A stretch of DNA of 40,184 nt from an uncultured Bacteroidales bacterium (GTDB lineage Bacteria > Bacteroidota > Bacteroidia > Bacteroidales > Bacteroidaceae). Of the stretch, positions 4,974 through 36,680 are shown one piece after another; position 1 is the stretch's first letter; each line of letters starts with the position of its first letter. The notes under the pieces were generated by a model that was given only the letters and a program-made list of their open reading frames with translations, made no database searches and was not told the origin of the DNA. The stretch is taken from NCBI GenBank assembly GCA_902776455.1, contig CACYQI010000017.1, positions 1 to 40,184 of the forward strand, given 5' to 3'. Made by a program: the position numbers and the translations under genes.

Positions 4974-5999
4974 TCAAAAGTTTGCAAAAGAAGCCTGTAT
5001 GTCCTCTTTCGGCACTCTGTTCCAGTCGAAAAGGGGCAGAAGTTCGTGCGGAAGAGCAGGCGATGGGGCAGGGAGAATGCCGGCCCAGAAGGCGAGACGG
5101 CCTATGATGTCGGCGGGAGCGAAGTGCTGCTGGCGCAAATAGCCTATGTCCATGCTGCGGTCGCGCTTGCAGAGGCGCTGTCCTGCCTCGTTGATGAGGA
5201 GCGGATGATGGCAGAAGTGCGGCTCTGGAAGGCCAAGGGTACGATAGAGATGAAGCTGCTGCGGCGTGCTGAGCAGGAGGTCGCGACCGCGGACAACCTC
5301 GGTGACGCCCATCGAGGCATCGTCAACGACGACGGCCAACTGGTAGGCCCAGGCGCCGTCGCGGCGTCGAAGGATGTAGTCGCCACAATGGCGGGCAAGG
5401 TTGACCTGCTGCTCGCCATAGTGTCCGTCGCAGAAGGAGATGACCTCGTCCGGCACCATGAAGCGGACGGCAGAAGGGGAGTTTCTAGTTTGACTAGAAG
5501 AGCTAGAAGAACTAGAAGAACTAGAGGAACTAGGAAGACTAGAAGGGCTAGCCACCCCTGGAACCATGTTCTTTGGGCGACAGGTGCCGGCATAGACGAT
5601 GCGGCCGTCTGTTTCGTGGGGAGCTTGTGTAGCCATGATGTCGGCCCGCGTGCAGAAGCAAGGGTAGGTGAGGCCTGCCTGCTGAAGTTGCTGAAGGTAG
5701 TGCTGGTAGATGTCGCTGCGGCGGCTTTGCCAGACCACCTCGCCGTCCCAGGGAAGTCCGAGCCAGAGGAGGTCGTCCTGAAGCTGCAAGGCGAAGTCCC
5801 GACGGGAGCGAGCGGGGTCGAGGTCCTCTATGCGGAGCCGCCACAGCCCGCCTTTGCTCTTGGCCGAGAGCCACGAGAGCAAGGCACAGAAGACGTTGCC
5901 GAGGTGCATGCGGCCAGTAGGGGAGGGGGCGAAGCGGGACACCACCCGACCGCCCTCAGGGAGAGGGGAACTGGGACTGATAGGGCTGATAGGGCGCAT
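4974..5999 (-). CDS. gluQ: Glutamyl-Q tRNA(Asp) synthetase with a polyserine insertion
   Basis: 341 residues related to the catalytic half of glutamyl-tRNA synthetase without an anticodon-binding domain. GluQRS attaches glutamate to queuosine in tRNA(Asp). Seen: the ATP-site motif RFAPSPTGRMHLGN (about 22-35), LRIEDLDPARSRRDF, zinc-type cysteines in PCFCTRAD and YAGTCRP, the VVRGRDLLLSTPQQLHLYRTLGL segment and a KMSKS-like RLCKRDRS. Residues about 148-172 are almost all serine, encoded by a 9-bp CTAG repeat inside the zinc-region loop. The first residues (MRPISPISP) come from a second nonamer array that runs across the start, so the true start may be a GTG at the VVSRFAPSPTG segment. The stop falls at 4974. 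Confidence 0.9.
   Translation of the reverse strand: MRPISPISPSSPLPEGGRVVSRFAPSPTGRMHLGNVFCALLSWLSAKSKGGLWRLRIEDLDPARSRRDFALQLQDDLLWLGLPWDGEVVWQSRRSDIYQHYLQQLQQAGLTYPCFCTRADIMATQAPHETDGRIVYAGTCRPKNMVPGVASPSSLPSSSSSSSSSSSSSQTRNSPSAVRFMVPDEVISFCDGHYGEQQVNLARHCGDYILRRRDGAWAYQLAVVVDDASMGVTEVVRGRDLLLSTPQQLHLYRTLGLPEPHFCHHPLLINEAGQRLCKRDRSMDIGYLRQQHFAPADIIGRLAFWAGILPAPSPALPHELLPLFDWNRVPKEDIQASFANF
5485..5556. repeat. In-frame 9-bp CTAGnnnnn array within gluQ (8 units)
   Basis: Eight consecutive 9-mers start with CTAG (5485, 5494, 5503, 5512, 5521, 5530, 5539, 5548), mostly CTAGAAGAA. Because 9 is a multiple of 3 the frame is kept, and on the minus strand it reads as serine codons (TCT, AGT, TCC, AGC and so on), giving the polyserine tract. 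Confidence 0.92.
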
Positions 6000-6120
6000 G
6001 GGGCTAAGGGGAATTACAGGACTATAGAAGCTATAGAGGCTATAGTAGCTATAGAGGCTATAGAAACTATAGAGACTATAGAAGCTATAGGAACTATAGA
6101 GACTATAGAAACTATAGCTC
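5974..6120. repeat. 9-bp CTATAG array between gluQ and the prenyl synthase gene
   Basis: CTATAGnnn repeats 11 times without interruption from 6022 to 6120, ending directly against the stop codon of the polyprenyl synthase gene at 6121. The same 9-bp phase continues degenerately upstream (GGGCTGATA, GGGCGCATG, GGGCTAAGG) to about 5974 and crosses the annotated gluQ start. CTATAG is self-complementary. Confidence 0.9.
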
Positions 6121-7092
6121 TTACAGGGTTCTCTCCGCTACGAAGGCGGTGAGTTGGTGCAGGGCTTGGGTGACGACGGCGTTGCGGGTGTCGTCGATGA
6201 GGCCGTTGGCCATTGCCTGCATGTCTTTCATGTGCCAGCGGGCATAGTCGAGTCCGCCTTCGCTGACTGCAAAGTCGATGAGGCGGTCTATCTCTTCGGA
6301 GGATGCTTCCCGACGTCGCACCTTGAGGGCCAGGTCGTGCATGGACGCGTCGCCCTTGTAGTTGACGGCGTAGATGGCAGGCAGCGTGAGCTTACCCTCC
6401 ATCATGTCGTTGCCTACGGGCTTGCCCACTTCGGCCGTTCCGTAGTCGAAGAGGTCGTCGCGCAGCTGGAAGCAGATGCCGATGAGCTTGCCGTACTGTG
6501 CCATGCGCTCTGCATCGGCTTCCGTGCCTCCGGCGACTAATGCTCCCAGTCGGGCACAGGTGGAGAAGAGGCTCGCCGTCTTGCGGCTGATGACATCGAA
6601 GTAGGCTCCTTCCGACAGCGTGTCGGACTCCTTGCTGTCCAGCTGCCGCAACTCGCCTTCGGAGAGTGTCTGTCCGAGCTTCGAGATGTGGTGCAGGACG
6701 CGCAAGTCCTCGGTCTGTGCGGTACATTCGAGTGCTTTGCTCAGGATATAGTCGCCGGAGAGCACCGCCACCTGGCTAGAGAACAAGGCATTGACCGACG
6801 GCATTCCGCGCCGACGGTCGCTTTCGTCCACCACGTCGTCGTGGAGGAGGGAGGCCGTGTGAAGCAGTTCGATAGCCAGCGCCACGCTGATGACTTTCGG
6901 GTTGACTTCGCCTGCCATGCGTGCCGAGAGCAGGACAAGCATCGGACGAACCTGCTTGCCGGTGGATTTGAGCAGATGCTCTGCTACCTTTTCGAGCAGC
7001 GGGTTGTCGCTATAAAGCATTTGGCGAAAAGCTTCGTTGAATTGCTCCATTTCGGCTGCAATTGGGGCCTTTATCTTGTCGAGTACGTCCAT
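6121..7092 (-). CDS. Trans-polyprenyl diphosphate synthase (IspB-like)
   Basis: 323 residues, normal for long-chain trans-prenyltransferases. The first aspartate-rich motif is LLHDDVVDESDRRRG and the second is QLRDDLFDY, the two magnesium-diphosphate sites. GKQVRPMLVLLSARM near the start and KLTLPAIYAV after the second motif are also conserved. It condenses isopentenyl diphosphate units onto an allylic primer, probably making the menaquinone side chain at the membrane surface; chain length cannot be read from the sequence. It is upstream of gluQ on the same strand, separated by the nonamer array, and divergent from polA. Confidence 0.93.
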   Translation of the reverse strand: MDVLDKIKAPIAAEMEQFNEAFRQMLYSDNPLLEKVAEHLLKSTGKQVRPMLVLLSARMAGEVNPKVISVALAIELLHTASLLHDDVVDESDRRRGMPSVNALFSSQVAVLSGDYILSKALECTAQTEDLRVLHHISKLGQTLSEGELRQLDSKESDTLSEGAYFDVISRKTASLFSTCARLGALVAGGTEADAERMAQYGKLIGICFQLRDDLFDYGTAEVGKPVGNDMMEGKLTLPAIYAVNYKGDASMHDLALKVRRREASSEEIDRLIDFAVSEGGLDYARWHMKDMQAMANGLIDDTRNAVVTQALHQLTAFVAERTL

Positions 7093-7111
7093 TTATCACA
7101 TCTTTAGGGTG

Positions 7112-7119
7112 CAAAATTA
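7112..7119 (-). promoter_or_regulatory. Likely -7 element for the prenyl synthase gene
   Basis: TAATTTTG on the minus strand matches TAnnTTTG and lies 20 bp upstream of the ATG at 7092. No convincing -33 TTTG was found at the usual spacing. Confidence 0.45.
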
Positions 7120-7181
7120 CATAAAATTGTGCTTCTTTCATATTTTTTTCCTACTTTTACCACATAAAAGGACAGAAAAAG

Positions 7182-9767
7182 ATGCAGAAACTCTATTTAT
7201 TGGATGCTTACGCACTGATTTATCGCGCTTATTACGCCTTTATCAAGAATCCGCGCATCAATTCGAAGGGAGAGAACACGTCGGCCATTCTGGGCTTCGT
7301 CAACACGCTGGATGATGTGATGTCGAAGGGTCAGCCCACACATCTGGGCGTTGCCTTCGACCCCCACGGCCCGACGTTCCGCCACGAGGCCTTCCCCGAA
7401 TACAAGGCACAACGAGAGGAAACGCCCGAGGCCATCCGCTTCGCCGTACCTCTCATCAAGGAGATACTGGCCGCCTACCGCATTCCGGTGCTCGAAGTGC
7501 AAGGCTACGAGGCCGACGACATCATCGGCACGCTGGCTCAGCAGGCTGACGAGAGGGGCATCGAGACCTACATGATGACGCCCGACAAGGACTACGGGCA
7601 GCTCGTCACGGAGCGCGTCAGGATGTATCGTCCGCCGATGGGACGAAACAGCGAGGCAGAGATTCTCGGCCCCGAGGAAGTGAAGAAGAAGTGGGGACTG
7701 CAGTCGCCGCGGCAGGTCATCGACATGCTGGGACTCATGGGCGATGCCGTCGATAACATCCCGGGCTGTCCGGGCGTGGGCGAGAAGACGGCGCAGAAGC
7801 TCATCGAGGAGTTCGGAAGCATCGAAAAACTGCTGGCTTCTACCTCGAAGCTCAAGGGAGCGCTCCGCGAAAAGGTGGAGAACAACGTCGAGCAAATCAG
7901 GCAGAGCAAGTGGCTCGCCACTATCTGCAAGGACGTGCCCATCGCGCTCGACATGGACGCTCTGCAGGTGAAGGAACCCGACTCCGAGAAGCTGCAGGAG
8001 CTGTTCCGCAGGCTCGAGTTCCGACAACTGCTGAACAAAGCCGCTAAGGAAAGCCCTCTGCCCCCTGCCAAGAAGGAGGAAGAAAAGAAAAACACCGATG
8101 GTTCTCAGCAACTTGACTTGTTCGCAACGAATGCCGAGCCTGCCTCTGCGAAGGGAGAAGAACAGGCCGTCCAACTCGACCTCTTTAGCCAGGGTTTTAC
8201 ACAGCACGCTGTTCAGCCCGATACTGCACGCAGTGTAAGCCTACACAGCACGGAGCATGAGCCTACACAGCACGGAGCATTTTCAGCCCCCCCCTTCGTC
8301 GTGATTTCCTCCCCCTCGGAGAAGGACGAAAAAGAGGTCGTCGGACACAACCTGAAGGCTCAATGGAAGGCGCTCAAGCAGCAGCAGCTGACCGACTTGC
8401 CGATGTTCGACACGGAGATTGCCCACTACATTCTGCACCCCGAAATGCGCCACTATCTCGACTACCTGCTGTCTATCTACGGCTGCTCCGACGTGGTGGG
8501 GCTGAAGAAATGCCTGGAGGAAGAGCTGCACAAAGAAGGACTCTGGGGCCTCTTCGCTGAGATAGAGATGCCCTTGATGCCGGTGCTGGCCGAGATGGAA
8601 GAGGCGGGCGTAATGATTGACACTGAAGGACTTAAAGAGACCAGCCGCCTCTTCACGGAGCAGATGCTGGCACTCGAAAAGGAGATACACGCCGAGGCAG
8701 GCATCGACTTCAACATCTCCAGCCCGAAGCAGGTGGGAGAGGTGCTCTTCGACCACTTGAAGCTCGACTCGAAGGCCAAGAAGACGAAGACGGGACAGTA
8801 CGTCACCAACGAGGAAGTGCTGGAGGCGCTGAGGCGGAAGCACCCGATTGTGGGCAAGATTCTCGACTACCGCGGACTCAAGAAGCTGCTGAGCACCTAC
8901 ATCGACGCCCTGCCGCAACTCATCAACAAGGAGACGGGACACATACATACGTCGTTCAATCAGACCGTTACAGCCACGGGGCGACTCTCGTCGTCGAACC
9001 CCAACTTGCAGAACATACCCGTCCGCGACGCCCAGGGAAAAGAGGTGCGGAAGGCTTTCATCCCTTATCCGGGACAGCTTTTCTTCAGCGCCGACTACAG
9101 CCAGATAGAGCTGCGCATCATGGCGCACCTCAGCCAAGACCCCAACCTCATTGAGGCTTTCCTCGAAGGCAACGACATCCATGCGGCCACAGCTGCAAAG
9201 ATTTTCAAAAAACCCATCGGGGAGGTTACTTCGGACGAAAGGCGGAAGGCCAAGACTGCCAACTTCGGCATTATCTACGGCATCAGCGCCTTCGGCCTCG
9301 CCGAAAGGCTGGGCGTGGGGAGAAGCGAGGCTAAGCAGCTCATCGACGAGTACTTCCAGACCTATCCCGGCGTGAAGGCTTACATGGAGAAGAGCATCGA
9401 AATGGCTCGCGAAAAAGGTTTCACCGAGACCATCTTCCATCGGCGTTGCCAGTTGCCCGACATCAACAGCCACAACGCCGTGGTGCGCGGCTATGCCGAG
9501 CGCAATGCCATCAACGCCCCGATACAGGGTTCGGCGGCCGACATCATCAAGATAGCGATGGTGCGCGTCCATAGGCGCATGAAGGCAGAGGGCTTGAAGT
9601 CGAAGATGATCCTGCAGGTTCACGACGAACTCAACTTCTCGGTCCTGCCCGAAGAGAAGGAGAAGTTGCAGCAACTGGTCATCGAAGAAATGCAAGGCTC
9701 CGCGTCGCTCAGCGTCCCCCTCATCGCCGACTGCGGCTGGGGAACGAACTGGCTCGAAGCACATTAA
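7182..9767 (+). CDS. polA: DNA polymerase I with degraded proofreading domain
   Basis: 861 residues, shorter than typical Bacteroidetes Pol I (roughly 920-950). The 5'-nuclease domain (about 1-295) is intact, with LLDAYALIYRAYYAF, GYEADDIIGTLA and the GDAVDNIPGCPGVGEKTA helix-hairpin-helix. The polymerase domain is intact: motif A DYSQIELR (638-645), motif B RRKAKTANFGIIYG (687-700) and motif C VHDEL (813-817). Between them the 3'-5' exonuclease domain is cut to about 90 residues. There is no DTET exo I motif, exo II reads GHNLKAQ (388-394) with the catalytic Asp replaced by Gln, and the exo III Tyr/Asp motif is missing. A 22-bp repeat array encodes residues about 339-367 at the upstream edge of the loss. 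It should replicate and repair without proofreading. Confidence 0.95.
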   Translation: MQKLYLLDAYALIYRAYYAFIKNPRINSKGENTSAILGFVNTLDDVMSKGQPTHLGVAFDPHGPTFRHEAFPEYKAQREETPEAIRFAVPLIKEILAAYRIPVLEVQGYEADDIIGTLAQQADERGIETYMMTPDKDYGQLVTERVRMYRPPMGRNSEAEILGPEEVKKKWGLQSPRQVIDMLGLMGDAVDNIPGCPGVGEKTAQKLIEEFGSIEKLLASTSKLKGALREKVENNVEQIRQSKWLATICKDVPIALDMDALQVKEPDSEKLQELFRRLEFRQLLNKAAKESPLPPAKKEEEKKNTDGSQQLDLFATNAEPASAKGEEQAVQLDLFSQGFTQHAVQPDTARSVSLHSTEHEPTQHGAFSAPPFVVISSPSEKDEKEVVGHNLKAQWKALKQQQLTDLPMFDTEIAHYILHPEMRHYLDYLLSIYGCSDVVGLKKCLEEELHKEGLWGLFAEIEMPLMPVLAEMEEAGVMIDTEGLKETSRLFTEQMLALEKEIHAEAGIDFNISSPKQVGEVLFDHLKLDSKAKKTKTGQYVTNEEVLEALRRKHPIVGKILDYRGLKKLLSTYIDALPQLINKETGHIHTSFNQTVTATGRLSSSNPNLQNIPVRDAQGKEVRKAFIPYPGQLFFSADYSQIELRIMAHLSQDPNLIEAFLEGNDIHAATAAKIFKKPIGEVTSDERRKAKTANFGIIYGISAFGLAERLGVGRSEAKQLIDEYFQTYPGVKAYMEKSIEMAREKGFTETIFHRRCQLPDINSHNAVVRGYAERNAINAPIQGSAADIIKIAMVRVHRRMKAEGLKSKMILQVHDELNFSVLPEEKEKLQQLVIEEMQGSASLSVPLIADCGWGTNWLEAH
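8195..8282. repeat. 22-bp repeat array inside polA
   Basis: Four 22-bp units (about 8195-8216, 8217-8238, 8239-8260, 8261-8282); the last two are nearly identical (GCCTACACAGCACGGAGCAT). It is the same family as the intergenic 22-mers at 18659, 23875, 25769 and 36892, here in reverse orientation. It codes for a His/Thr/Ser-rich linker without stop codons. Confidence 0.85.
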
Positions 9768-9813
9768 GGCTCTTAATGAGCAAAAACCATACAAGAATAG
9801 AAAAAGTAACAAC

Positions 9814-9860
9814 TTTGTTAGTAACAAACTTGTTAGTAACAAATTTATTTTATACCTTTG
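9814..9860 (+). promoter_or_regulatory. Promoter with two tandem palindromes for the ATPase gene
   Basis: TACCTTTG (9853-9860) and CTTG (9829-9832), spacer 20 bp. Two copies of TTGTTAGTAACAA lie at 9814-9828 (as the perfect TTTGTTA-G-TAACAAA) and 9830-9842, 16 bp apart, overlapping the -33 element. Tandem dyads in this position look like an operator for a repressor, possibly autogenous. Confidence 0.6.
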
Positions 9861-9886
9861 CGCCAAGAAAACAATGATTTAACATA

Positions 9887-11406: not shown

Positions 11407-11940
11407 TTACTTCACGAACTTCTTGCCGTCCTTAATGTATAGGCCCCTCTGCGGTTTGCTCAAGCGTTGGCCGGCAAGATTGTAAATCTTTAAGTCCTTT
11501 CCTTTAGGAGAGGATTTAGGAGAGGCTATCCCTGTTGCAGTCTCTTCCCCGGCATAGCTTACAGCATCCGTATCTGCAAAGCGTACGTTGTAGAGCCTCG
11601 CTGTGCCTTCTCCGTTGATATTGATAGGGATGCGGAGCAGTTCGCCGTCCTTGAAGGTATTGAGGTTCATGCTGAAGAGGATGAAGAGCTGGTCGCCATT
11701 GTCGAGCGTCTCTATGCAGAGCGTGTGTCCGTCTGTGGCGGAACCAAGCGTGGCATTGCTTGTGTCGATAGTCACGCCTACTGGCAACTGCAAGCAGAAC
11801 TGCAGAGCAGTCATGCCTGTCGCACCTGAAATGTTCATCGTTGCCTCGTTTGCCTTAACCTTAAACGAGAGGTTCTGGGCGTTCGCACTACCGACAATTG
11901 CCGCAAGTGCGAATAGGATTGTTTGTATTCTTTTCTTCAT
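11407..11940 (-). CDS. Small secreted protein, cohesin-like, with Bacteroidales C-terminal motif
   Basis: 177 residues. Signal peptide MKKRIQTILFALAAIVGSANA. The middle (about 25-130) alternates beta strands (ALQFCLQLPVGVTID, QLFILFSMNLNTFKDGELLR) in a way that resembles cohesin-type carbohydrate-scaffold domains. The C-terminus IYNLAGQRLSKPQRGLYIKD is the short tail common on secreted Prevotella/Bacteroides proteins, possibly for secretion or surface anchoring. A piece of G-rich repeat (AGGAGAGGATTTAGGAGAGG, minus-strand residues about 138-148, ASPKSSPKGKD) forms the linker before that tail. A dockerin-like protein is encoded two genes upstream. Cohesin assignment is tentative. Confidence 0.75.
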   Translation of the reverse strand: MKKRIQTILFALAAIVGSANAQNLSFKVKANEATMNISGATGMTALQFCLQLPVGVTIDTSNATLGSATDGHTLCIETLDNGDQLFILFSMNLNTFKDGELLRIPININGEGTARLYNVRFADTDAVSYAGEETATGIASPKSSPKGKDLKIYNLAGQRLSKPQRGLYIKDGKKFVK

Positions 11941-16014: not shown

Positions 16015-16030
16015 TATATTTAGTAATGTT

Positions 16031-16134
16031 AAGTGGTTAGAGGTAAGAGGTTAGGGGTTAGAGAAATGCTTGTGATGTTTATTAGAGCCTAAAGGTATTC
16101 TCTAACCCCTAACCTCTTACTTCTAACCACTAAC
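16031..16134. repeat. Heptamer-arm hairpin element, copy 1
   Basis: The left arm (16031-16064) is a run of AGNGGTT-type heptamers and the right arm (16099-16134) is its reverse complement with about one mismatch over 32 bp. The 34-nt loop (16065-16098, AATGCTTGTGATG start) matches the loop of the element at 32727-32818. It fills the gap between the nadA stop and the antiporter start. Confidence 0.85.
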
Positions 16135-16147
16135 TATATATAAAATC

Positions 16148-18117: not shown

Positions 18118-18260
18118 AGCGGCTATTCCCCTCCCCTCGAAGTGGAGAAGACCCCTCCCAATCTTCCTTAAAGGGAAGGGGCTTGGAAGTTAGCAAGGAA
18201 GCTTGTCCGCGGTTCCCCTCCCCTCGAAGGGGAGGGGGTAGGGGTGGGGAGTGTAAACTC
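18118..18260. repeat. G-rich hairpin repeats downstream of the TrmH-type gene
   Basis: Two or three copies of the G-rich hairpin, including a complete CCCTCCCCTCGAAGGGGAGG core near 18214-18235. They continue into the 66-bp tandem array. No gene is supported between 18091 and 18775. Confidence 0.75.
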
Positions 18261-18281
18261 ACCTCTCAAAGCTTTAACTGC

Positions 18282-18567
18282 TTCACCCCACCCCTAACCC
18301 CTCCCCTTAAAAGGGAGGGGAAAGGACCTTTAAACGCAGTCAGCCTTTTCACCCCACCCCTAACCCCTCCCCTTAAAAGGGAGGGGAAAGGACCTTTAAA
18401 CGCAGTCAGCCTTTTCACCCCACCCCTAGCCCCTCCCCTTAAAAGGGAGGGGAAAGGACCCTTGAATGCAGTCAGCCTTTTCACCCCACCCCTAACCCCT
18501 CCCCTTAAAAGGGAGGGGAAAGGAAGTTGCAAAGGAGGGGAAAGGAAGTTGCAAGGGAGGGGAAAGG
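18282..18567. repeat. Tandem 66-bp G-rich repeat (4 copies) plus a 22-bp-like tail
   Basis: TTCACCCCACCCCTAACCCC starts at 18282, 18348, 18414 and 18480, an exact 66-bp period; each unit has a CCCCTTAAAAGGGAGGGG hairpin and an AAACGCAGTCAGCC spacer. After the fourth, GAGGGGAAAGGAAGTTGC repeats about 2.5 times at roughly 22 bp. Open frames on both strands are pure repeat, since 66 is a multiple of 3. Confidence 0.92.
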
Positions 18568-18636
18568 ATGCTCAGAACAGGCTGTTTCCGCACCCATTTG
18601 GTGCCGTTATTTCATCTCCCCTATGATACCCGGTTT

Positions 18637-18724
18637 TACGCCGCGTGGAGCATCGGCCGATTCTCCGTGGAGTGTAAGCCGATTCTCCACGGAGTGTAAG
18701 CCGATTCTCCACGGAGTGTAAAAC
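18637..18724. repeat. 22-bp palindromic repeat array (CTCCACGGAG family)
   Basis: Three full units at 18659, 18681 and 18703 and a partial one at 18637. Each holds CTCCGTGGAG or CTCCACGGAG followed by TGTAAGCC. It lies between the 66-bp array and the 3' end of the coiled-coil gene. Confidence 0.9.
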
Positions 18725-18775
18725 CACCCCCCTTGGGGGCTTTCTTTTCGGGACTGCAAGAAGGCCTGAACGACC

Positions 18776-23806: not shown

Positions 23807-23852
23807 CAGACATCCGCAATCGAAAATAAAGACACCCACAGGAGCATCACTC

Positions 23853-23970
23853 TACACAACGTGCTGTGTAGGCTGATGCTCCACGTTGTGTAAGCCGATG
23901 CTCCGTGGAGGAAAGCCCGATGCTCCGTGGAGCGTAGGCCGATGCTCCGTGGAGTGTAAACTGATGCCCC
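23853..23970. repeat. 22-bp palindromic repeat array
   Basis: Units start at 23875, 23897, 23919 and 23941, each GATGCTCC plus a palindromic core, with a degenerate unit at 23853 (ACACAACGTGCTGTGT). It lies downstream of the carbohydrate-binding protein gene. Confidence 0.9.
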
Positions 23971-24093
23971 ATAACGGTGATTAAAATTTAATGTTGTCCG
24001 GGGATAATCAAGGGCACCTCTACTTATGCGCCTATTATTCGGTTTTCCTAACAAAAAGCAGCCCAAGTGGCTTATCTAAAGTCTCGAAGAGAC

Positions 24094-25895: not shown

Positions 25896-26141
25896 TTCCC
25901 TTCCCCTCCCTTTCAGCCTCCTTTCCCCTCCCTTCTAAGGGGAGGGGTTAGGGGTGGGGTGAGAGTTCAGGCTGCTTGCTTCTTTGCTTAGCATCCCCAC
26001 CCCTACCCCCTCCCCTTCGAGGGGAGGGGAAAGGCCCCTGCCTTCCCTTTTTGTTCATTCGGCAACCGTCTCAGTCTGAGAAGGAATACCGTCTTCCCTT
26101 CCCCTCCCTTCTAAGGGGAGGGGTCAGGGGTGGGGTGAAAA
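25896..26141. repeat. Three G-rich hairpin repeats downstream of metH
   Basis: Copies at about 25920-25960, 25991-26032 and 26096-26138, the middle one inverted. They fill the space between the metH stop (26155) and the 22-bp array. No gene is supported between 25655 and 26154. Confidence 0.85.
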
Positions 26142-26154
26142 GTCTGTCTGCTTG

Positions 26155-29100
26155 CTATTTCCCCTGGACAATAAACTTGGAGAGGAGTTGTTCGCCTTCC
26201 TCCTCGGTGATGCCCCGCCGCTGGCAGTAGTCGCGGAGCTGGTCGCGGTCGATGCGGCCCACAGGGAAGTACTTGGCTTCCGGGTGCCAGATGATGAGTC
26301 CGCACACGGAGGTGGACGGCTGGATGCTGTAGTGGTCGGTCAGCTTGACGTTGAGCTTCTGCTCGGCCTCCAGCCTGTCGAAGACGATGCGCTTGAGCGA
26401 ATGGTCGGGACAAGTGGCGTAGCCGAAGGCAACTCTCAAAGTTGAAAAGTTGAAAAGTTGAAAAGTTGAAGCGTTAGATTCATGCCTGTTTCCATTTTTC
26501 ACCTTTTCACCTTTTAACCTTTTCACCTTTTCCTCAAGCCACTCGGCTGCCGCTTCGGCCAGTCGGGCACAGAGGGCGTGCATCATCAGGCGCTCCTCTT
26601 CGTCTTTCGGCTCTTGCAGCGGGCGGGCCGTCACCACGAAGAGTCCGATGGGAGAGGGCTGCTTCTCGTCGAAGAAGTCGGCAAGGCAGCGGTAATGATA
26701 AGCGGCGGATTGGCTGCGAAGCATCGGCAAAGTCTGTCCGTCTTCGCACAGCACGATGTCGTTCCCCCTGCGGATGGCCGGCTCTACCTTATATAAAGCC
26801 TCCACCTCCAAACTCTTGTTCTCGATGCACTTCTCGAGGAATTGCTTGCCCTTCCTCAGCGTCTTCTCTGCCTCGGGGTTGACCAGGAGCTGCTGTAGCG
26901 TTTCGCCCTTGAAGCCCCAGAACAGCAGGAACATACGCCAATCGATGAGGTCTTTTAAGAGTGAAGAGTGAAGAGTGAAGAGTGAAGAATTAGCTGCCGC
27001 CTTAGAATGAGGGTTAGGAATGAGGATAGAAGAGTGAGGAGTGGGCGATGCCATCGGTGCGGTAGCAAATTCTTCATTCTTCATTCTTAATTCTTCATTT
27101 ATTTTGTTGGCCTCCTCGTATGTCGTCAGAGGCGCATGATGCTCGTTGAAGGCATCGCGAATCTCTGTCTGTTCGGCCTTGAATTCTTCGATGAAATGGG
27201 CTTTTTTTGTGATTAATCGCTTCGCAAGCACAGAGGTTCGCGAGGCATCGCCGCCATAGAGGACCAGTCCGTCGTAGAGGGGAGCCAGTTTTACTGCAGT
27301 GTGGACGGCCGACGTCGTTGCCCCGCCCACCAGGATGGGCACGTCGAGATGCTCCCGTTGGAAGGTCTCGCAGAGCTTTTCCATTTCCTTCAGCGACGGA
27401 GTAATCAGTCCGCTGATGCCCACGAGGACGGGCTTGTGCTTCAAGGTCGCTTCGAGAATCGTCTCGCACGGCACCATGACGCCGAGGTCAATCACTTCGA
27501 ACCCGTTGCAAGCCAGCACGATGCCTACGATGTTCTTCCCGATGTCGTGGACGTCGCCGTTGGCCGTGGCGAGTACGATGCAAGGCTTCTCCTTGCCGCC
27601 TTGCGCTTCGTCCTGCGCATCGATGTAGGGTTGCAGGATGGCCACGGCGTCCTTCATCACCTGTGCCGACCGCACCACTTGCGGCAGGAACATCTTGCCT
27701 TCGCCGAACAGCGTGCCGATGTGTTCCATGGCCTGCATGAGGGGGCCTTCGATGACGTTGATGGGCTGACCGTACTTGGCCAGCGCTTCGGGTATGTCCT
27801 CTGCGAGGTGGCTGCTGTCGCCCTTGGTCAAAGCAGACAGCAAACGCTGTTCAATGCTTAATGAAGAATGAAGAATGAAGAATGAAGAATCAGAGTTACC
27901 GTTAGATGTTGCTGGTGAATTTAATTCTTCACTCTTCACTCTTAGTTCTTCACTCAAGGCAAGCAGTCTTTCTGTTGCTTCGTCGTCGGTGTTCAGAACG
28001 ACGTCTTCGACCGCTCGCCGCAGGTTTTGGTCGATTTCATCGTATATTTGGAGCATCGACGGATTGACGATTGCCATGTCGAGACCTGCGCGGATGGCGT
28101 GGTAGAGGAACACCGAATGCATGGCTTCCCTGACCCGATTGTTGCCGCGGAAAGCGAAGGAGAGGTTGCTGACGCCGCCGCTTGTCTTCGCATAGGGCAG
28201 GTTCTCCTTTATCCAACGCACGGCGCGGATGAAATCGACGGCATAAGCTTGGTGCTCCTTGATGCCCGTCCCGACGGAAAGGATATTGACGTCGAAGATG
28301 ATGTCCTCAGGAGGAAAACCGATGGAGGTCAGCAGGTTGTAGGCACGCTGAGCGATGGAAATCTTTCTCTCGTAGGTCGTGGCCTGCCCTTCCTCGTCGA
28401 AGGCCATCACGACCACCGCGGCTCCTAAGCGTCTCAGCTCAAGAGCTTTGGCCAGAAAGTCCTGCTCTCCGGCTTTGAGGCTAATGGAGTTGACGATGCA
28501 CTTGCCCTGTGCGTTCTTCAGTCCGGCGAGGACTGTCGGCCAGTCGCTGCTGTCGATCATGAGGACGGCCTTGCCCACGGCGGGATCGCCGCTGATGTGC
28601 CGGAGGAAAGTCTGCATTTCTTGTCGGCTGTCGAGCATGGCGTCGTCCATGTTGATGTCGATGATGGATGCTCCGCCATCTATTTGACCTCGTGCCACGG
28701 AGAGTGCCTCGCCGTACTGCTTCTCTGCGATGAGGCGGGCGAATCTGCGTGAGCCGGCGACGTTAGTGCGCTCCCCTATGTTCGTGAAGTTCTGTGTCTT
28801 GCGGTCGATGAGCAAGGGTTCGAGGCCCGACACGCGCAGCTGATGGTCGGCCTGTGGAATGGTGCGTGGCTTGATGCCGCGCAGGGCGTCGGCAATGGCC
28901 TTGATGTGCTGTTCGTCCGTACCGCAGCAGCCCCCGGCGATGTTGATGAGGCCGTCGCAGGCCATCCTGCGGAGATGCGAGGCGGTGAAGTCGGGGAGTT
29001 CCTCGTATTCGCCCATCTGGTTGGGCAGTCCGGCATTGGGATAGAGCGAAATGGGCAGGGGGCAGTTGGCAGCGAGCTGTTCGACGAAGGGTCGCAAGTC

Positions 29101-29910
29101 TGTGACGCCAAACGAGCAGTTCAGGCCGAAGCTGAGCAGATAGGGGTAGTGGCTGACGCTCGTATAGAAGGCCCAAAGGGTCTGCCCCGTGAGGGTGCGG
29201 CCGCTATGGTCGTTGATGGTGACCGACACCATGACGGGAATTTCCCGATGGAATCGGGCATTTATGTCGCTGATGGCAGAGAGAGCAGCCTTCGTGTTGA
29301 GGGCGTCGTAGCAAGTCTCCAAGAGGAGGAAATCGGCACCGCCTTCGAGGAGAGCCAATGCCTGCTCGCGATAAGAATCGGCCATTTCATCGAAAGAAAC
29401 GGCTCTCCGCGAGGCATCGCCCATGTCGGAAGGCAAGGTAAGCGACTTTGCCGTGGGTCCCATCGAGCCGGCCACATAAATCCTTCTGTCATTGACCATT
29501 GACCATTGACCATTGACCGTTTCTCCCCCTAAAGGGGGACGGGGGGTCTGAGCGGTCTTTTCATTTGCCGCCAGCCTGGCCAGCCTTGCGCCTTCGCGGG
29601 CCATCTCGGCGGCGATGTCCGAACAACCGTATTCCTGCTGGCTGATGCGGTTGGAGGAGAAGGTGTTGGTAGCAATGATGTCGGCTCCCGCCTCGATGTA
29701 AAGGCGGTGGATGTCCGTGATGACTTCGGGCGCGGTGAGGCTGAGAATGTCGTTATTGCCTACAAGCGAGACCGGCCACGACGCGAACCGTCCGCGATGA
29801 AAGCTCTCGGCCGAAAGTCCGAAAGCCTGAATCCTCGTGCCCATCGCGCCGTCCATGATGAGGATGCGACGGGCGAGACTGTCTTTTAGTTCCTTAAACG
29901 ACTGCTCCAT
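26155..29910 (-). CDS. metH: Cobalamin-dependent methionine synthase with four repeat-derived inserts
   Basis: 1251 residues from the ATG at 29910; an upstream TTG at 29922 overlaps the promoter -7 box and is rejected. Domains: homocysteine binding (about 1-345; zinc cysteines in LNCSFGVTD and GGCCGTDEQH), methyl-folate binding (from FTNIGERTNVAGSRRFARL), cobalamin binding (DVHDIG, 786-791, with His788 as the cobalt ligand, then GFEVIDLGVMVPCE), and activation domain (HYRCLADFFDEKQPS; CPDHSLKRIVFDRL; HYSIQPSTSVCGLI). Four segments of low complexity lie between domains or in loops (about 116-141, 651-685, 936-986, 1126-1158), all coded by tandem repeats. It transfers methyl from 5-methyl-THF to homocysteine. 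No cobalamin riboswitch precedes it. Confidence 0.96.
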   Translation of the reverse strand: MEQSFKELKDSLARRILIMDGAMGTRIQAFGLSAESFHRGRFASWPVSLVGNNDILSLTAPEVITDIHRLYIEAGADIIATNTFSSNRISQQEYGCSDIAAEMAREGARLARLAANEKTAQTPRPPLGGETVNGQWSMVNDRRIYVAGSMGPTAKSLTLPSDMGDASRRAVSFDEMADSYREQALALLEGGADFLLLETCYDALNTKAALSAISDINARFHREIPVMVSVTINDHSGRTLTGQTLWAFYTSVSHYPYLLSFGLNCSFGVTDLRPFVEQLAANCPLPISLYPNAGLPNQMGEYEELPDFTASHLRRMACDGLINIAGGCCGTDEQHIKAIADALRGIKPRTIPQADHQLRVSGLEPLLIDRKTQNFTNIGERTNVAGSRRFARLIAEKQYGEALSVARGQIDGGASIIDINMDDAMLDSRQEMQTFLRHISGDPAVGKAVLMIDSSDWPTVLAGLKNAQGKCIVNSISLKAGEQDFLAKALELRRLGAAVVVMAFDEEGQATTYERKISIAQRAYNLLTSIGFPPEDIIFDVNILSVGTGIKEHQAYAVDFIRAVRWIKENLPYAKTSGGVSNLSFAFRGNNRVREAMHSVFLYHAIRAGLDMAIVNPSMLQIYDEIDQNLRRAVEDVVLNTDDEATERLLALSEELRVKSEELNSPATSNGNSDSSFFILHSSLSIEQRLLSALTKGDSSHLAEDIPEALAKYGQPINVIEGPLMQAMEHIGTLFGEGKMFLPQVVRSAQVMKDAVAILQPYIDAQDEAQGGKEKPCIVLATANGDVHDIGKNIVGIVLACNGFEVIDLGVMVPCETILEATLKHKPVLVGISGLITPSLKEMEKLCETFQREHLDVPILVGGATTSAVHTAVKLAPLYDGLVLYGGDASRTSVLAKRLITKKAHFIEEFKAEQTEIRDAFNEHHAPLTTYEEANKINEELRMKNEEFATAPMASPTPHSSILIPNPHSKAAANSSLFTLHSSLLKDLIDWRMFLLFWGFKGETLQQLLVNPEAEKTLRKGKQFLEKCIENKSLEVEALYKVEPAIRRGNDIVLCEDGQTLPMLRSQSAAYHYRCLADFFDEKQPSPIGLFVVTARPLQEPKDEEERLMMHALCARLAEAAAEWLEEKVKRLKGEKVKNGNRHESNASTFQLFNFSTLRVAFGYATCPDHSLKRIVFDRLEAEQKLNVKLTDHYSIQPSTSVCGLIIWHPEAKYFPVGRIDRDQLRDYCQRRGITEEEGEQLLSKFIVQGK
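26438..26532. repeat. Octamer-arm hairpin in metH (activation domain)
   Basis: Left arm of GTTGAAAA octamers (26438-26470), loop 26471-26494, right arm of TTTTCACC octamers (26495-26532), pairing with G-U pairs. It encodes EKVKRLKGEKVKNGNRHESN and onward, replacing the segment before VAFGYATCPDHS. Confidence 0.85.
26957..27100. repeat. Heptamer-arm hairpin in metH (before the activation domain)
   Basis: GAGTGAA heptamers (26959-26986) and a complementary TCATTCT heptamer arm (27068-27100) enclose about 80 nt that include more GAGTGAGGAG-type units. In frame on the minus strand; it encodes Glu/Lys/Asn then Ser/His/Leu-rich peptide. Confidence 0.85.
27857..27955. repeat. Heptamer-arm hairpin in metH (before the cobalamin domain)
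   Basis: ATGAAGA heptamers (27861-27890), a loop of about 30 nt, and a complementary arm of TTCACTC heptamers (27922-27954). It encodes SEELRVKSEELN then HSSLS between the folate and cobalamin domains. Confidence 0.85.
29490..29550. repeat. CATTGAC heptamers plus G-rich hairpin in metH
   Basis: Four CATTGAC heptamers (29490-29517) adjoin a G-rich hairpin (29521-29550, CCCCCTAAAGGGGGACGGGG). Minus strand: TAQTPRPPLGGETVNGQWSM, inserted between LARLAANEK and YVAGSMGPTAKS. Confidence 0.88.
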
Positions 29911-30120: not shown

Positions 30121-31455
30121 TCAGAACATCTGGCTGACGCGTCGGATGCCGGCGACGAGGGCATCGACGTCCTCCCGAGTGTTGTAGAGGGCGAAGCTGG
30201 CGCGGCAGGTGCCTTCGATGCCGAGGCGACGCATGAGCGGCTCAGCGCAATGGTGGCCGGTGCGGATGGCGATGCCGAGGCGGTCGAGCAGCGTGCCCAT
30301 GTCGAGATGGTGGATGAAGGAGCCTCCAGCCTTCCCAGTCCCCTCCAAAGGAGAGGAGAACGGCGCGGCTTTCGCTGGGGCGGCTTTCACTAAGAAGCTG
30401 ATGACAGCGTCGTGCTCTTCGAGGTCTTTCGGACCGAAGATGTGCATGCCTTCTATCTCGCTCAAGCGCTTGAAAGCGTAGGCTGTGAGGTCCCGCTCGT
30501 GGGCTTCAATGGCATCGAAGCCTATGGAGCTAACATAGTCGAGGGCACGGGCGAGGCCTGTGGAGGCCACATAATCGGGGGTGCCGGCTTCGAACTTGTA
30601 AGGAAGGTCGTTGAAGGTAGTCTTTTCGAAGCTCACCGTCTTTATCATCTCGCCTCCGCCCATGTAGGGAGGGATGCGGTCGAGCCATTCTTCCTTGCCG
30701 TAGAGCACGCCGATGCCGGTCGGGCCGTATATCTTGTGGCCGCTGAAGGCGAAGAAGTCGCAGTCAAGCTCCTGCACGTCGATGGGCATGTGGGGTGTGC
30801 TTTGGGCACCATCGATGAGGACCGGAACGCCGTGCTCATGGGCGATGCGGACGATGTCGCGCACAGGGTTGACCGTTCCCAGCACGTTGCTGACGTGCGT
30901 AAGGCTGACGATGCGGGTGCGCTCGTTGAAGAGCTTTCGGTATTCCTCCATGCAGAGCCGGCCGTCGTCGCTGATGGGACAGACGCGAAGCCTGATGCCC
31001 TGCCTTGCCTGCAGCAGTTGCCAGGAGACGATGTTGCTGTGGTGCTCCATCTCGGAGACGATGACCTCGTCGCCCTCCTTCATAAAGGCTTGGCCGAAGC
31101 ACGATGCCACGAGGTTGATGCTTTCCGTCGTTCCGCGGGTGAAGACTATTTCGCTGGCCGAGCGGGCATTAAGGAAACGACGCACCGTCTCGCGCGACGC
31201 CTCGTGCAGCTCCGTGGCTTGCTGCGAGAGGAAGTGTACGCCTCGATGTACATTGGCATTGACGTTGTAGTACTCCTCCGTCATGGCTTCGACCACACAG
31301 CGCGGTTTCTGCGTCGTTGCGGCGTTGTCGAGATAGACAAGAGGGTACTTGCCATAGAGGATCTTCCCTAAGATAGGGAAAAGACCCTCCCCCAACCCCT
31401 CCCTTGTAGAGAGGGGAGGAGTTACCTTTGTTGACTGAATATCTTTCTTTTCCAT
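30121..31455 (-). CDS. sufS: Cysteine desulfurase SufS with two repeat-derived inserts
   Basis: 444 residues versus about 405 usual. A PLP enzyme that takes sulfur from cysteine for Fe-S assembly. The PLP lysine is Lys241 in FFAFSGHKIYGPTGIG, and the sulfur-accepting cysteine is Cys403 in AIRTGHHCAEPLM. Other landmarks: VYLDNAATTQKP, RGTTESINLVA, EMEHHSNIVSWQ. Residues about 11-25 (VTPPLSTREGLGEGL) split the normal N-terminal helix just before FPIL, and about 355-377 (APAKAAPFSSPLEGTGKAGG) sit between VISFLV and FIHHLDMGTLLD. Both are coded by G-rich hairpins. It is last in the suf operon; no sufE or sufU is in the window. Confidence 0.95.
   Translation of the reverse strand: MEKKDIQSTKVTPPLSTREGLGEGLFPILGKILYGKYPLVYLDNAATTQKPRCVVEAMTEEYYNVNANVHRGVHFLSQQATELHEASRETVRRFLNARSASEIVFTRGTTESINLVASCFGQAFMKEGDEVIVSEMEHHSNIVSWQLLQARQGIRLRVCPISDDGRLCMEEYRKLFNERTRIVSLTHVSNVLGTVNPVRDIVRIAHEHGVPVLIDGAQSTPHMPIDVQELDCDFFAFSGHKIYGPTGIGVLYGKEEWLDRIPPYMGGGEMIKTVSFEKTTFNDLPYKFEAGTPDYVASTGLARALDYVSSIGFDAIEAHERDLTAYAFKRLSEIEGMHIFGPKDLEEHDAVISFLVKAAPAKAAPFSSPLEGTGKAGGSFIHHLDMGTLLDRLGIAIRTGHHCAEPLMRRLGIEGTCRASFALYNTREDVDALVAGIRRVSQMF
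30326..30364. repeat. G-rich hairpin inside sufS, C-terminal part
   Basis: CCAGTCCCCTCCAAAGGAGA core of the G-rich family, in frame. Nearby codons repeat an Ala-Ala-Pro/Lys pattern (GGCGCGGCTTTCGCTGGGGC), suggesting a local duplication as well. Confidence 0.8.
31383..31425. repeat. G-rich hairpin inside sufS, N-terminal part
   Basis: CCCAACCCCTCCCTTGTAGA core with complementary GAGGGGAGG, the same unit as the intergenic copy at 31475-31504. In frame on the minus strand. Confidence 0.88.
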
Positions 31456-31504: not shown

Positions 31505-31508
31505 GTCC

Positions 31509-32714: not shown

Positions 32715-32726
32715 CAGTCTGTTTTT

Positions 32727-32818
32727 GTGGTTAGTGGTTAGAGGTTAGTGGTTAGAGGAATGTTGTGGATGCTTGTTTAAGGGCAGAAGTATCTTCTAAC
32801 CTTTAACTTCTAACCCTT
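32727..32818. repeat. Heptamer-arm hairpin element, copy 2, overlapping the sufC stop
   Basis: Left arm of GTGGTTA/GAGGTTA heptamers (32727-32757), a loop like that of copy 1 (AATGTTGTGGATGCTTG...), and a right arm (32792-32818, TCTAACCTTTAACTTCTAAC). The right arm covers the last codons and stop codon of sufC. Confidence 0.85.
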
Positions 32819-33560: not shown

Positions 33561-33571
33561 ATAGTTCGATA

Positions 33572-35200
33572 TTATTCGGTCAGTCTTGTGTCACGTCCGC
33601 CTTTGCCTTTTGGGAAGACATGATGGCTGTTGGCCCATTCCTCCCACTTCTCCACGAGTTGCTTCAGGCGTTCTGGCTCTTTGGCTGCAAGGTCATTGCG
33701 CTCTGTGCGGTCGTTCGGGATGTTATAAAGTTCCCACTTGTCGGTCACTTCGTCGCGAACAGCCTTCCATTCGCCATGACGCACGTAGCAGTTGTCAGCG
33801 TGCTCGCCGTAGATGTAGTCGTGCAGCTTTTTGCTGGGCTGCTTGATGGCAGGTACGAGGCTTGTACCTTGCAGCGGAATAATCTCGTTGCCGCCGTGAT
33901 ACGTCTTCGGGTATTTGGCTTTGGCAACATCAACGAAAGTAGCCATGAGGTCTGTGACGTGGCAGATGTTCTCTCGGAGTTCGGAGGCATATTGTTGGGT
34001 CTGTTCCGGCCAAGAGACAATGAGCGGGGCCGCAATGCCGCCTTCGTAAGCGCGTCGCTTGTATTTGCGGTAGGGCGTGTTGCTCACCATTGCCCAGGGT
34101 TTGCCATACGATGGTTGCACCCAGTGTTGCTGGTTGTTGATGTCGGCGATTGTTCCGAAGCCTGTTTCGCTGTACGGCTCAGCGCATGCCCCATTGTCGG
34201 AGAGGAAGATGATGAGTGTGTTGTTGAGCTGTCCCTTGCTTTGCAGATAATCAATGATGCGGCCAATGTTGTAGTCCATGCAATAAACTTGTGCGGCATA
34301 GACCGACATGCGCAGGGCAGAGTTGTCCTGCTCTTGCTCGTTGAGCTGACTCCACGTTCTGGACTCCCATTCGGCGAGTCCCCATTCGTCCTTGACAAGT
34401 CCCAGCTCCACCATTCGTTGCCTGCGCTGTTCCCTTGTCTCTTGCCAGCCAGCGGCATAGCGTCCGGCCATCTTCTCGATGTCGGCATCCTTGGCTTGCA
34501 GTGGCCAGTGGGGAGCATTGTAGGCAAGGTAGAGGAAAAATGGTTTGTCGTCCGTCTGCTGTTCCAAGAAGCCGATGGCATGGTCGGTGAAGGCATCGGT
34601 CGTATAATAAGGTGGTCTCGGAGCGGGCAGATTTGTGTTGTCGAGCGTCAGGCCTCGTCCGCCTTTCGGTTGCAGATAGCTGGTCGCGCCGGCCAGGATG
34701 CCGTAGAAGTGCTCAAAGCCTCGTTGCAGGGGCCATTTCTCCTTGCCGTGCATGCCGACATGCCATTTGCCAGTCATGTAAGTGTGGTAGCCTGCATCGC
34801 GCAGCACCTCGGCCATCGTCACGCAGTTGCGGTTGAGAAAGCCCATGTAGCCGTGTTCGCCTTGATGTTCGGGGTCGTTCCCGTCCTTGAGTTCCGGGTC
34901 TTCAGACATTGCACCGATGCCAGCCTGATGAGAGTAGAGACCCGTGAGGAGGCTGGCTCTTGTAGGGCAGGAGCGTCCGCAGTTGTAGAATTGCGTGAAG
35001 CGAAGCCCGCGGGCAGCCAGAGCGTCGATGTTGGGCGTCGGTATCTCTCCACCATAGCAGCCGATGTCAGAGTAGCCCATATCGTCGGCCATGATGAGGA
35101 GGATGTTCGGACGCTTGTCTGTGTTCTTGTCTGCCAAGCCAGGAATGGCGGACAACAGTGCCAGAAGCGAGAGGCTGCGTTTCGTGATGTGAGCTTTCAT
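33572..35200 (-). CDS. Arylsulfatase, serine-type, secreted
   Basis: 542 residues. Signal peptide MKAHITKRSLSLLALLSAIPGLA. The metal site is ILLIMADDMGYSDIGCYGG (Asp39, Asp40). The active-site signature C/S-x-P-x-R reads S77-C-P-T-R81 within CGRSCPTRASLLTG, so the residue converted to formylglycine is serine. KWHVGMHGKEKWPLQRGFEHF and YLAYNAPHWPLQA, then LSDNGA, are typical sulfatase segments. It should remove sulfate from glycans such as mucin or glycosaminoglycans in the periplasm. It lies between sufB (16-bp gap) and sufC (11-bp gap), an unexpected place. Its substrate is not predictable here. Confidence 0.95.
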   Translation of the reverse strand: MKAHITKRSLSLLALLSAIPGLADKNTDKRPNILLIMADDMGYSDIGCYGGEIPTPNIDALAARGLRFTQFYNCGRSCPTRASLLTGLYSHQAGIGAMSEDPELKDGNDPEHQGEHGYMGFLNRNCVTMAEVLRDAGYHTYMTGKWHVGMHGKEKWPLQRGFEHFYGILAGATSYLQPKGGRGLTLDNTNLPAPRPPYYTTDAFTDHAIGFLEQQTDDKPFFLYLAYNAPHWPLQAKDADIEKMAGRYAAGWQETREQRRQRMVELGLVKDEWGLAEWESRTWSQLNEQEQDNSALRMSVYAAQVYCMDYNIGRIIDYLQSKGQLNNTLIIFLSDNGACAEPYSETGFGTIADINNQQHWVQPSYGKPWAMVSNTPYRKYKRRAYEGGIAAPLIVSWPEQTQQYASELRENICHVTDLMATFVDVAKAKYPKTYHGGNEIIPLQGTSLVPAIKQPSKKLHDYIYGEHADNCYVRHGEWKAVRDEVTDKWELYNIPNDRTERNDLAAKEPERLKQLVEKWEEWANSHHVFPKGKGGRDTRLTE

Positions 35201-35216
35201 AGTCGTTGCTTTTTTT

Positions 35217-36680
35217 TTACCCGACGCTGCCTTCCAGGCTGACGCCGAGCAGCTTCTGAGCTTCGACGGCGAACTCCATGGGCAGCTTGTTGATGACTTC
35301 CTTGGCGTATCCGTTCACGATGAGCGAGACGGCTTCCTCGGTGTTGATGCCTCGCTGGTTGAGGTAGAAGAGCTGGTCCTCGCTGATCTTGCTGGTCGTG
35401 GCTTCGTGTTCTACGACGGCTGTCTCGTTGTGTACGTCCATATAGGGGAAGGTGTGAGCGCCGCAATGGCTGCCCAGCAGGAGCGAGTCGCAGCTGCTGT
35501 AGTTGCGGGCGCCGTCGGCTGTCGGGGCCACCTTCACGAGGCCTCGGTAGGCGTTCTGGCTTCGGCCGGCGCTGATGCCTTTCGAGATGATGGTGCTCCG
35601 CGTGTTCTTGCCCAGATGAATCATCTTTGTGCCGGTATCGGCCTGCTGGAAGTTGTTGGTGACGGCCACGCTGTAGAACTCTGCCTGGCTGCCGTCGCCC
35701 GAGAGCACGCAACTGGGGTACTTCCAGGTAATCGCGCTGCCCGTCTCCACTTGTGTCCAGGAGAGACGGCTGTCCCTGCCTCGCAGGTGGCCGCGCTTCG
35801 TGACGAGGTTGAGCACCCCGCCTTTGCCTTCGCTGTCGCCCGGGTACCAGTTCTGTACGGTCGAGTACTTGACTTCGGCCCTTTCCTTCACCACGATTTC
35901 CACGATGGCTGCGTGCAGCTGGTTCTCGTCGCGCATGGGAGCGGTGCAACCCTCCAGGTAGGAGACGTAGGCATCGTCGTCGCAGACGATGAGCGTCCTT
36001 TCGAACTGACCTGTGCCGCGGGCGTTGATGCGGAAGTAGGTGCTGAGTTCCATGGGGCAACGCACGCCTTTGGGGATATAGACGAAGGAACCGTCGCTGA
36101 AGACGGCGGAGTTGAGGGCCGCGAAGTAGTTGTCGCGATAGGGGACGACGCTGCCGAGGTACTCGCGCACGAGGTCGGGATGCTCGCGCACGGCCTCGCT
36201 GATGGAGCAGAAGATGATGCCCTTCTCCTTCAGCTTCTCGCGGAACGTCGTCTTGACGCTTACGGAGTCCATGACGGCATCGACAGCCGTACCGGCCAGC
36301 GCCATGCGTTCCTCCAGGGGGATGCCCAGCTTGTCGAAGGTCTTCATCAGTTCCGGGTCGATTTCCTTCTCTCCCTCTTGCCCCTTGCCCCCTGCTCCCT
36401 GCCCCTTGCGCGTGGGGTCGGCATAGTAGGAGATGGCCTGATAGTCGATGTCGGGCATCTTGAGGTGGCCCCAAGTGGGCTGTTCCAGAGTGAGCCAGTA
36501 GCGGTAGGCATTCAGGCGGAACTCCAGCAGCCAGTCCGGCTCGCCCTTCTTTCGGGAGATGAGGCGCACGACATCTTCCGACAGACCCTTCTCGATGATG
36601 TCCGTCTCGACGTCGGTGGTGAAGCCGTACTCGTACTTCTTCTCCGCCACCTCGCGCACAAAGCTGTTCTTTTCCTCCAT
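35217..36680 (-). CDS. sufB: Fe-S cluster scaffold SufB with heptamer-coded insert
   Basis: 487 residues from the ATG at 36680 ([20 protein letters not shown], the family start); an upstream in-frame ATG at 36740 would include the promoter and is rejected. Conserved parts: [16 protein letters not shown], the [20 protein letters not shown] segment, [60 protein letters not shown] and [21 protein letters not shown] loop of 14 residues (about 90-103, [14 protein letters not shown] within DPTRKGQ...IDPELMKTF) is exactly six heptamers of 42 bp. SufB is the first gene of the operon and nucleates the cluster. Confidence 0.96.
36373..36414. repeat. GCCCCTT heptamer array inside sufB
   Basis: Six heptamers: CCCTCTT, GCCCCTT, GCCCCCT, GCTCCCT, GCCCCTT, GCGCGTG. 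Length 42 bp, so the frame is kept. Confidence 0.88.

Follow-up and report, generated by a model that had tools for sequence, protein, structure and literature searches.

How does short repetitive DNA of the kind that fills the gaps between genes come to lie, in frame, inside conserved housekeeping genes? The question is raised by a stretch of 40,184 nucleotides (nt) from an uncultured Bacteroidales bacterium (contig CACYQI010000017.1 of assembly GCA_902776455.1), here called the window, which is the entire contig C17 of a metagenome-assembled genome (MAG) of 3,394,765 bases in 94 contigs with a completeness of 87%. The genome of the window is termed the own genome, congener genomes are denoted G005, G008, G012 and so on, and the closest named relatives by polA were three MAGs at 80-81%, namely RGIG4863 (roe deer rumen), RUG11599 and RUG606. 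The phenomenon is real and is seen in many separate assemblies. The reading that we favour, with rather more confidence than doubt, is that repeat families spread through the genome, accumulate between genes, land in tolerant in-frame slots and then turn over there, with some exchange with sister species.

The original prediction had placed repeat segments inside gluQ, polA, dacB, a 177-residue secreted protein, metH (four), sufS (two) and sufB, and both the repeat calls and the reading frames agree with it; the six named genes are also those assigned by NCBIfam. The four metH inserts, all on the minus strand, are slot 1 (29485-29565, residues ~120-146), made of half a repetitive extragenic palindrome (REP) followed by GTCAATG heptamers; slot 2 (27856-27960, residues ~655-689), with heptamer arms flanking a core; slot 3 (26956-27108, residues ~939-989), with heptamer arms and a core holding a GAATTTGCTACCGC-type motif; and slot 4 (26431-26538, residues ~1129-1164), with 8-mer arms flanking a short core. 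The polA insert (8193-8285, plus strand, residues 338-368) is a 22-mer array in the linker after the 5' nuclease (Tandem Repeats Finder, TRF, 8198-8280, period 22) and is common to up to 24 intergenic loci. On the minus strand, gluQ carries a 9-mer array encoding a serine run (5490-5564, residues ~146-170; TRF 5493-5545, period 9), dacB a REP-like segment (19929-20015, residues ~282-310; direct-repeat families D8 and D14; 7 intergenic loci), and sufB a heptamer segment encoding 10 residues (36369-36410; TRF 36377-36409, period 7; 5 intergenic loci). The two sufS inserts, likewise on the minus strand, are a REP-like N-terminal extension (31384-31428; direct-repeat family D5) and a segment that is REP-like by eye and immediately precedes IHHLD (30316-30387, residues 357-380).

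Alignment with orthologues, which the prediction had proposed as its check, bears the inserts out. At the second sufS site the insert is missing in 26 of 29 congener proteins, and in gluQ it is missing in 3 of 4 orthologues, the fourth, from the named MAG L069, having a longer serine run. The dacB protein exceeds in length the three informative orthologues among four found, the sufB loop is longest in the own genome and G005 among 30 aligned sequences (two relatives hold shorter KGQG-type text there), and the N termini of SufS differ among relatives. The inserts of the conserved genes coincide with places of length variation among relatives, and in PolA as modelled with AlphaFold2 (26 sequences, mean pLDDT 80) the single long stretch of pLDDT <50, residues 290-368 (79 residues), contains the 22-mer insert, in keeping with the predicted preference for loops and linkers. 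That the inserts keep the frame and bring no stop codon is true, yet partly circular, because open reading frames (ORFs) were what was examined. The 177-residue secreted protein has no NCBIfam family and was compared through paralogous tails only, which bear other repeat types; its REP-like segment (11497-11532, minus strand; 6 intergenic loci) precedes a C-terminal YNLAGQR tail. Ten secreted proteins of the own sample defined below end in such a tail, and by eye REP-like, 7-mer or 9-mer text precedes it in 7 of them, against 3 of 10 linkers that are repeat-bearing at a strict periodicity of 0.8.

The scale of the phenomenon was assessed in an own sample of 440 kb, comprising 400 kb of stretches from the own genome and the window, with 306 gene models derived from codon statistics. 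Under a strict criterion, by which a coding segment had to be common to at least 3 other intergenic loci, 55 coding segments were obtained in 44 of the 306 genes, and 38 of them, in 29 genes, were internal; dinucleotide-shuffled coding DNA gave 0 segments. Among genes of at least 200 residues, 27 of 225 held internal segments (35 of the 38), which exceeds chance, although the criterion is conservative and lets the gluQ, sufS and first metH inserts escape. By peptide motif the 38 internal segments were distributed as 16 heptamer, 12 REP-type, 2 nonamer and 8 other, the last including the polA 22-mer and the metH 8-mer. The kinds are distinct, as was claimed at the outset: REP-like G-rich hairpins (often inverted dimers, by eye), several heptamers, 8-mers, 9-mers and 22-mers. 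They occur both within and between genes, covering 2.25% of coding and 44.8% of intergenic DNA. This strong depletion in coding DNA is in line with the proposal that repeats are seeded and then selected, but the process does not look simply one-way, since slots hold different families in different species, cores are common to different genes and some inserts look exchanged. Pre-adaptation of the repeats to reading frames was considered and rejected: a random 60-nt frame is open in 48% of cases within intergenic repeats and in 46% within non-repeat spacer, and therefore the repeats are not specially frame-friendly.

The carriers are largely recognizable proteins. A set of 30, comprising 29 picked by eye among 92 genes of a looser test and SufS, was submitted to Pfam, and 27 received a family, many being core enzymes. 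Genes on the strict list include metH, polA, dacB, sufB, queA, cca and an rsmF-like gene, and the strict-list Pfam carriers comprise an RsmF-type methyltransferase, a semialdehyde dehydrogenase, an aspartate/ornithine carbamoyltransferase-type enzyme, an M24 peptidase, a DbpA-type helicase, QueA, a poly-A polymerase/CCA-type enzyme and IMP dehydrogenase. OMP decarboxylase, a TRAM radical-SAM enzyme, a SpoU methylase, alanyl-tRNA synthetase, QueG and sigma-54 were carriers by the looser test only. The own sample has 39.3 arrays of period 7, 8 or 22 (and 14, 16) per 100 kb, whereas a set of 77 named Bacteroidales loci, from which the three nearest MAGs were excluded, has 7.0; the ORF-internal arrays number 37 (229 genes) and 12 (786 genes), respectively (p ~8e-16 if arrays are treated as genes). 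A first indel test of 189 orthologue pairs (110 indels, 63 flagged) was discarded because its control flagged 104 of 330 through orthologues present in the database.

The content of such sites across congeners was read at eight slots of metH, queA and cca, scored in 12 to 15 species each; queA (three slots) and cca (two slots) were chosen from the own sample. At these slots congeners are short or empty, carry ordinary sequence, or hold unrelated repeat text. The automatic label for an empty slot reflects length only, and as several such rows of metH slots 2 and 4 hold short repeats they were not used as empty, while some rows labelled as other are REP-like by eye. metH slot 3 stands outside the slot counts; its anchors could be placed automatically in 2 of 17 species, and it was read by hand in the own genome, seven congeners and G086. 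The four metH positions hold differing material from congener to congener, be it REP dimers, other heptamers or nothing. Slot 1 is empty in G008, G051 and G068, and is shorter by three heptamers (21 nt) in G024 (120 nt) than in G012 (141 nt); slot 4 of G086 (locus L223) is a composite in which an 8-mer arm like that of the own genome and G013 is joined to GTCAATG-type heptamers. The first queA slot reads GEAQD in G008, G012, G024 and G068, and spans 21 to 45 residues in the own genome, G020, G005, G043, G052, G081, G086 and G102; the script labelled 4 of these 8 filled rows as REP and the remainder are REP-like by eye. The second cca slot, in 15 species, holds heptamers in 4, REP in 3, short sequence in 4 and other text in 4, being only 8 or 9 residues long in G005, G008, G051 and G068 and elsewhere consisting of REP, of other text or of heptamers, the last of two kinds. 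Judged from these alignments, the sites have the appearance of slots whose content is gained, lost and replaced.

Two further observations concern metH itself. The G081 frame is broken near residue 1058 (locus L227, near 4619-4629), away from the repeat slots. The MetH match ends near residue 930-970 in G003, G007, G009, G010, G015, G019 and others, a separate ORF of ~300 residues elsewhere being matched by the C-terminal domain.

The divergence of the inserts adds a second kind of evidence. In metH slot 4 the own genome and G013 differ at 1 of 108 positions, whereas the gene differs at 24.9% (p 1.4e-12); in comparison with the close flanks p is 5e-5. Similar disparities were observed between the own genome and G081 in cca slot 2 (2/111 against 13.7% for the gene) and between the own genome and G020 in metH slot 1 (2/96 against 12.7%) and queA slot 3 (4/90 against 21.5%). 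Inserts of low divergence occur mainly at metH slot 4, cca slot 2 and queA slot 3, with single pairs elsewhere. Between the own genome and G081 a metH tract of 93-100% identity runs from ~600 nt upstream into slot 2 (60-nt windows, lowest 93 except at the edge). G020, the sister of the own genome, begins a different insert in metH slot 4 before its contig ends, and therefore the own genome and G013 are probably not simply inheriting theirs. The metH core of the own genome and G020 gave a synonymous divergence (dS) of 0.50 and a nonsynonymous divergence (dN) of 0.049, so purifying selection continues in this insert-bearing gene. Near-identical inserts in diverged genes suggest short-tract exchange in some cases, constraint being the main alternative.

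The arrays are themselves organized. Among 122 heptamer arrays in the own sample, 33 had an inverted partner within 130 nt, 6 had a direct partner only and 83 had none, and a control with reversed words gave 1. A core ending in AACTCTGATTCTTC is common to metH slot 2 of the own genome and G081, metH slot 3 of G102 and queA slot 3 of G052, and TTTGCTACCGC is common to metH slot 3 of the own genome and cca slot 2 of G020. Allowing two mismatches, 11 sites of GAATTTGCTACCGC were located in the 440 kb, where shuffled words gave 0 to 5, and several of the 11 join two different arrays; a second core motif had 5 hits in the same sample, within its chance range of 0 to 7. Inverted arms are present in the elements, and no clear target-site duplication was visible by eye on comparing empty and filled metH slot 1. 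The heptamer elements appear to behave as dispersed units, in which a core bearing a shared motif is often flanked by an array on either side, the two in inverted orientation.

According to the favoured reading, several short, often palindromic repeat families would spread through the genome and accumulate between genes. Copies would land in, or be copied into, coding sequence, where most would be lost, and those could persist that lay at a tolerant site, had a length divisible by three and brought no stop. A filled slot would then keep changing, either by array growth (for heptamer arrays 21 bases, that is three units, per step) or by replacement, and some slots would be altered through recombination with sister species over short tracts, a route that would account for inserts nearly identical between otherwise diverged genes. 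The peptide gained in this way is probably a near-neutral spacer. A bolder form of this reading, which we put forward as possible rather than likely, holds that linker slots are communal docking sites in which unrelated repeat cassettes are inserted, enlarged and swapped between species through very short recombination tracts, such that the linker of an enzyme would be mobile and horizontally shared and the remainder vertically inherited.

Several observations weigh against the favoured reading. Slot changes counted by parsimony were not clearly fewer than with shuffled labels, on a species tree of three genes that is weakly supported (the sister position of G020 having support 97), and no insertion was caught between strains, the slot differences coming from comparison between species. 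The pairs examined for exchange were chosen because their inserts align. Across 34 located pairs the divergence of the insert lay below that of the whole gene in 18 and above it in 16, so low insert divergence is not general, and in metH slot 2 of the own genome and G020 the insert is more diverged (20/99) than the gene (12%). Against flanks of 17 codons per side, p was <0.05 in 3 of 14 pairs (own-G013 in metH slot 4, own-G020 in metH slot 1 and G043-G081 in cca slot 2), and therefore the tracts may include the flanks or the DNA may be constrained. Only 2 of 30 8-mer arrays had an inverted partner, and of 65 9-mer arrays 9 had an inverted partner and 14 a direct one only, which makes inverted pairing a mark of the heptamers. 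In 48 kb of the three nearest named MAGs, 15 arrays were counted with 1 ORF-internal over 30 genes, and the own genome may be unusually rich in inserts. On the compared contigs of G005, G008, G012, G013, G016 and G024, repeat-like indels lay nearly all in metH, in a test with a bad control.

The rival that survives best, though we regard it as unlikely, is growth in situ: low-complexity linkers would expand by replication slippage and hairpin template switching, and arrays and inverted arms would be made locally without copying from elsewhere. It would accommodate the many different heptamer units that have only their architecture in common, the whole-unit difference between G012 and G024 in metH slot 1, and the native cca text CQEQ|APLY, which is similar to array ends. 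However, the REP-type segments, nearly a third of the internal ones, are not slippage products, and the non-repeated core text shared by heptamer elements of different genes and species, together with the segments common to several intergenic loci, is at odds with purely local manufacture.

Slightly less probable still is that REP-like elements are moved by REP-associated tyrosine transposases (RAYTs), with the other repeats as passengers. The own genome does hold one RAYT over the family cut-off (NF047646, 95.6 bits, cut-off 80), and this gene, at locus L009, is bracketed by a GGCGGATT/AATCCGCC-type repeat at 1279-1338 and 2111-2360, with 22-mer-like text on one side by eye; a family match of some kind occurs in 62 of 101 genomes. 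Yet a match over the cut-off occurs in only 6 of the 101, the own genome included, and no match was present in the insert-bearing G005, G008, G012, G020, G024 and G052 (genomes 62-89% complete). The repeat common to both RAYT flanks is of the GGCGGATT/AATCCGCC kind and not the G-rich one, and at metH slots 1 and 4 the REP dimers, on inspection by eye, have GACCC ends instead of the GTAG or CGTC of RAYT-associated REPs. A RAYT as the only motor is unsupported by the six insert-bearing congeners, whose genomes are incomplete, and seems not to be required.

A role of the inserts in DNA, RNA or protein, their sequence being held by selection, appears to be a weaker candidate again. In its favour, among 37 alignable insert pairs at 8 slots the insert was less diverged than the 4-fold sites of its host in 37, and below half of that divergence in 22, but the count of 37 of 37 is favoured by a 70% identity filter that selects alike inserts, and against the whole gene the advantage shrinks to the near-even split given above. 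Close relatives, moreover, have short slots or unrelated repeats, and in the close pair G012-G024 three inserts pooled (18/288, 6.3%; singly 0/90, 13/117 and 5/81) evolve at the average rate of the gene. Fusion of repeats into genes by metagenome assembly or gene calling is very improbable: although repeats are prone to misassembly and the window is one whole contig of a 94-contig MAG, in many separate assemblies a given position is empty, filled or filled differently while the homology on either side of it is preserved, and L069 carries related polA text besides its longer gluQ serine run.

The intergenic DNA of the window holds the same kinds of repeat. A cluster of REP-like 66-mers and 22-mers (18206-18735) matches in kind those inside genes, a 22-mer array (23841-23976) matches the polA insert, REP-like copies lie downstream of metH (25916-26151), and a heptamer element with inverted 47-nt arms around a 32-nt core occupies 16019-16144 (inverted repeat I21). 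An 88-bp tandem repeat at 1174-1487 (3.6 copies, 95% matches) contains GATTAAACG-like nonamers. As to the genes, the alignment indicates that PolA (7182-9767, plus strand) of the own genome and its nearest relatives is without much of the 3'-5' exonuclease region present in Bacteroides and others. Between sufC and sufB lies an ORF (33572-35200, minus strand) which, from its sequence, we take to be sulfatase-like; in G005 the sufB-sufD gap is ~1.1 kb, with space for sufC only.

Comparable elements have been described elsewhere. Rickettsia palindromic elements are short palindromic repeats found in frame within conserved genes and between genes (PMC3733652), and the original prediction was right to name them as a precedent, but they are not the sole one: in-frame REPs, as singles and dimers, were published in 2013 for several genera, many of them encoding 20-30 residues and many lying in genes of DNA synthesis or repair; the host genes include those of DNA polymerase I, tRNA synthetases and helicases (PMC3733652). 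The section of that paper on intragenic REPs describes neither slot refilling nor exchange, unlike the present slots, and its REPs have GTAG/CGTC ends, whereas GACCC ends were seen in the dimers inspected here, a RAYT is seemingly unneeded and the heptamer elements are not REPs. With the Rickettsia elements, compared by description, the present inserts share an in-frame position in conserved genes with orthologues that lack the insert; they differ in that unrelated families coexist, tandem 7-, 8-, 9- and 22-mers are involved, the same slots are used across species and the host belongs to Bacteroidales.

Dispersed tandem heptamer repeats are familiar from cyanobacteria as short tandemly repeated repetitive (STRR) sequences. 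The TAACTGA heptamer repeats of Beggiatoaceae, Cyanobacteria and Bacteroidetes are likewise dispersed, and horizontal spread has been suggested for them with no evident mechanism; as described, they are mainly intergenic (PMC4679880). The tandem heptamers of the own sample share this dispersal, but comprise many units, often form inverted arms around cores and lie inside core enzymes, and TAACTGA was not among the 14 commonest heptamer units. BrickBuilt of Porphyromonas gingivalis, a miniature inverted-repeat transposable element carrying a minisatellite, resembles the present elements in being a Bacteroidales element with a minisatellite inside, and differs, by its description, in being always intergenic (PMC4596501). 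Among the open-licence PMC papers listed by the literature searches (at most 20 per search), no title or abstract opening pointed to slot refilling or insert exchange in Bacteroidales. What is new here seems to be the coexistence of families in the same slots, their refilling and the apparent exchange.

Overall, mobile-like repeat DNA appears to feed new protein segments repeatedly into core enzymes, in about one gene in eight of the sampled genome. At this scale, comparison of species can measure how inserts arrive, are tolerated, turn over and are exchanged, and the long-standing question of how non-coding repeats turn into protein is made directly testable in an uncultured gut genus.

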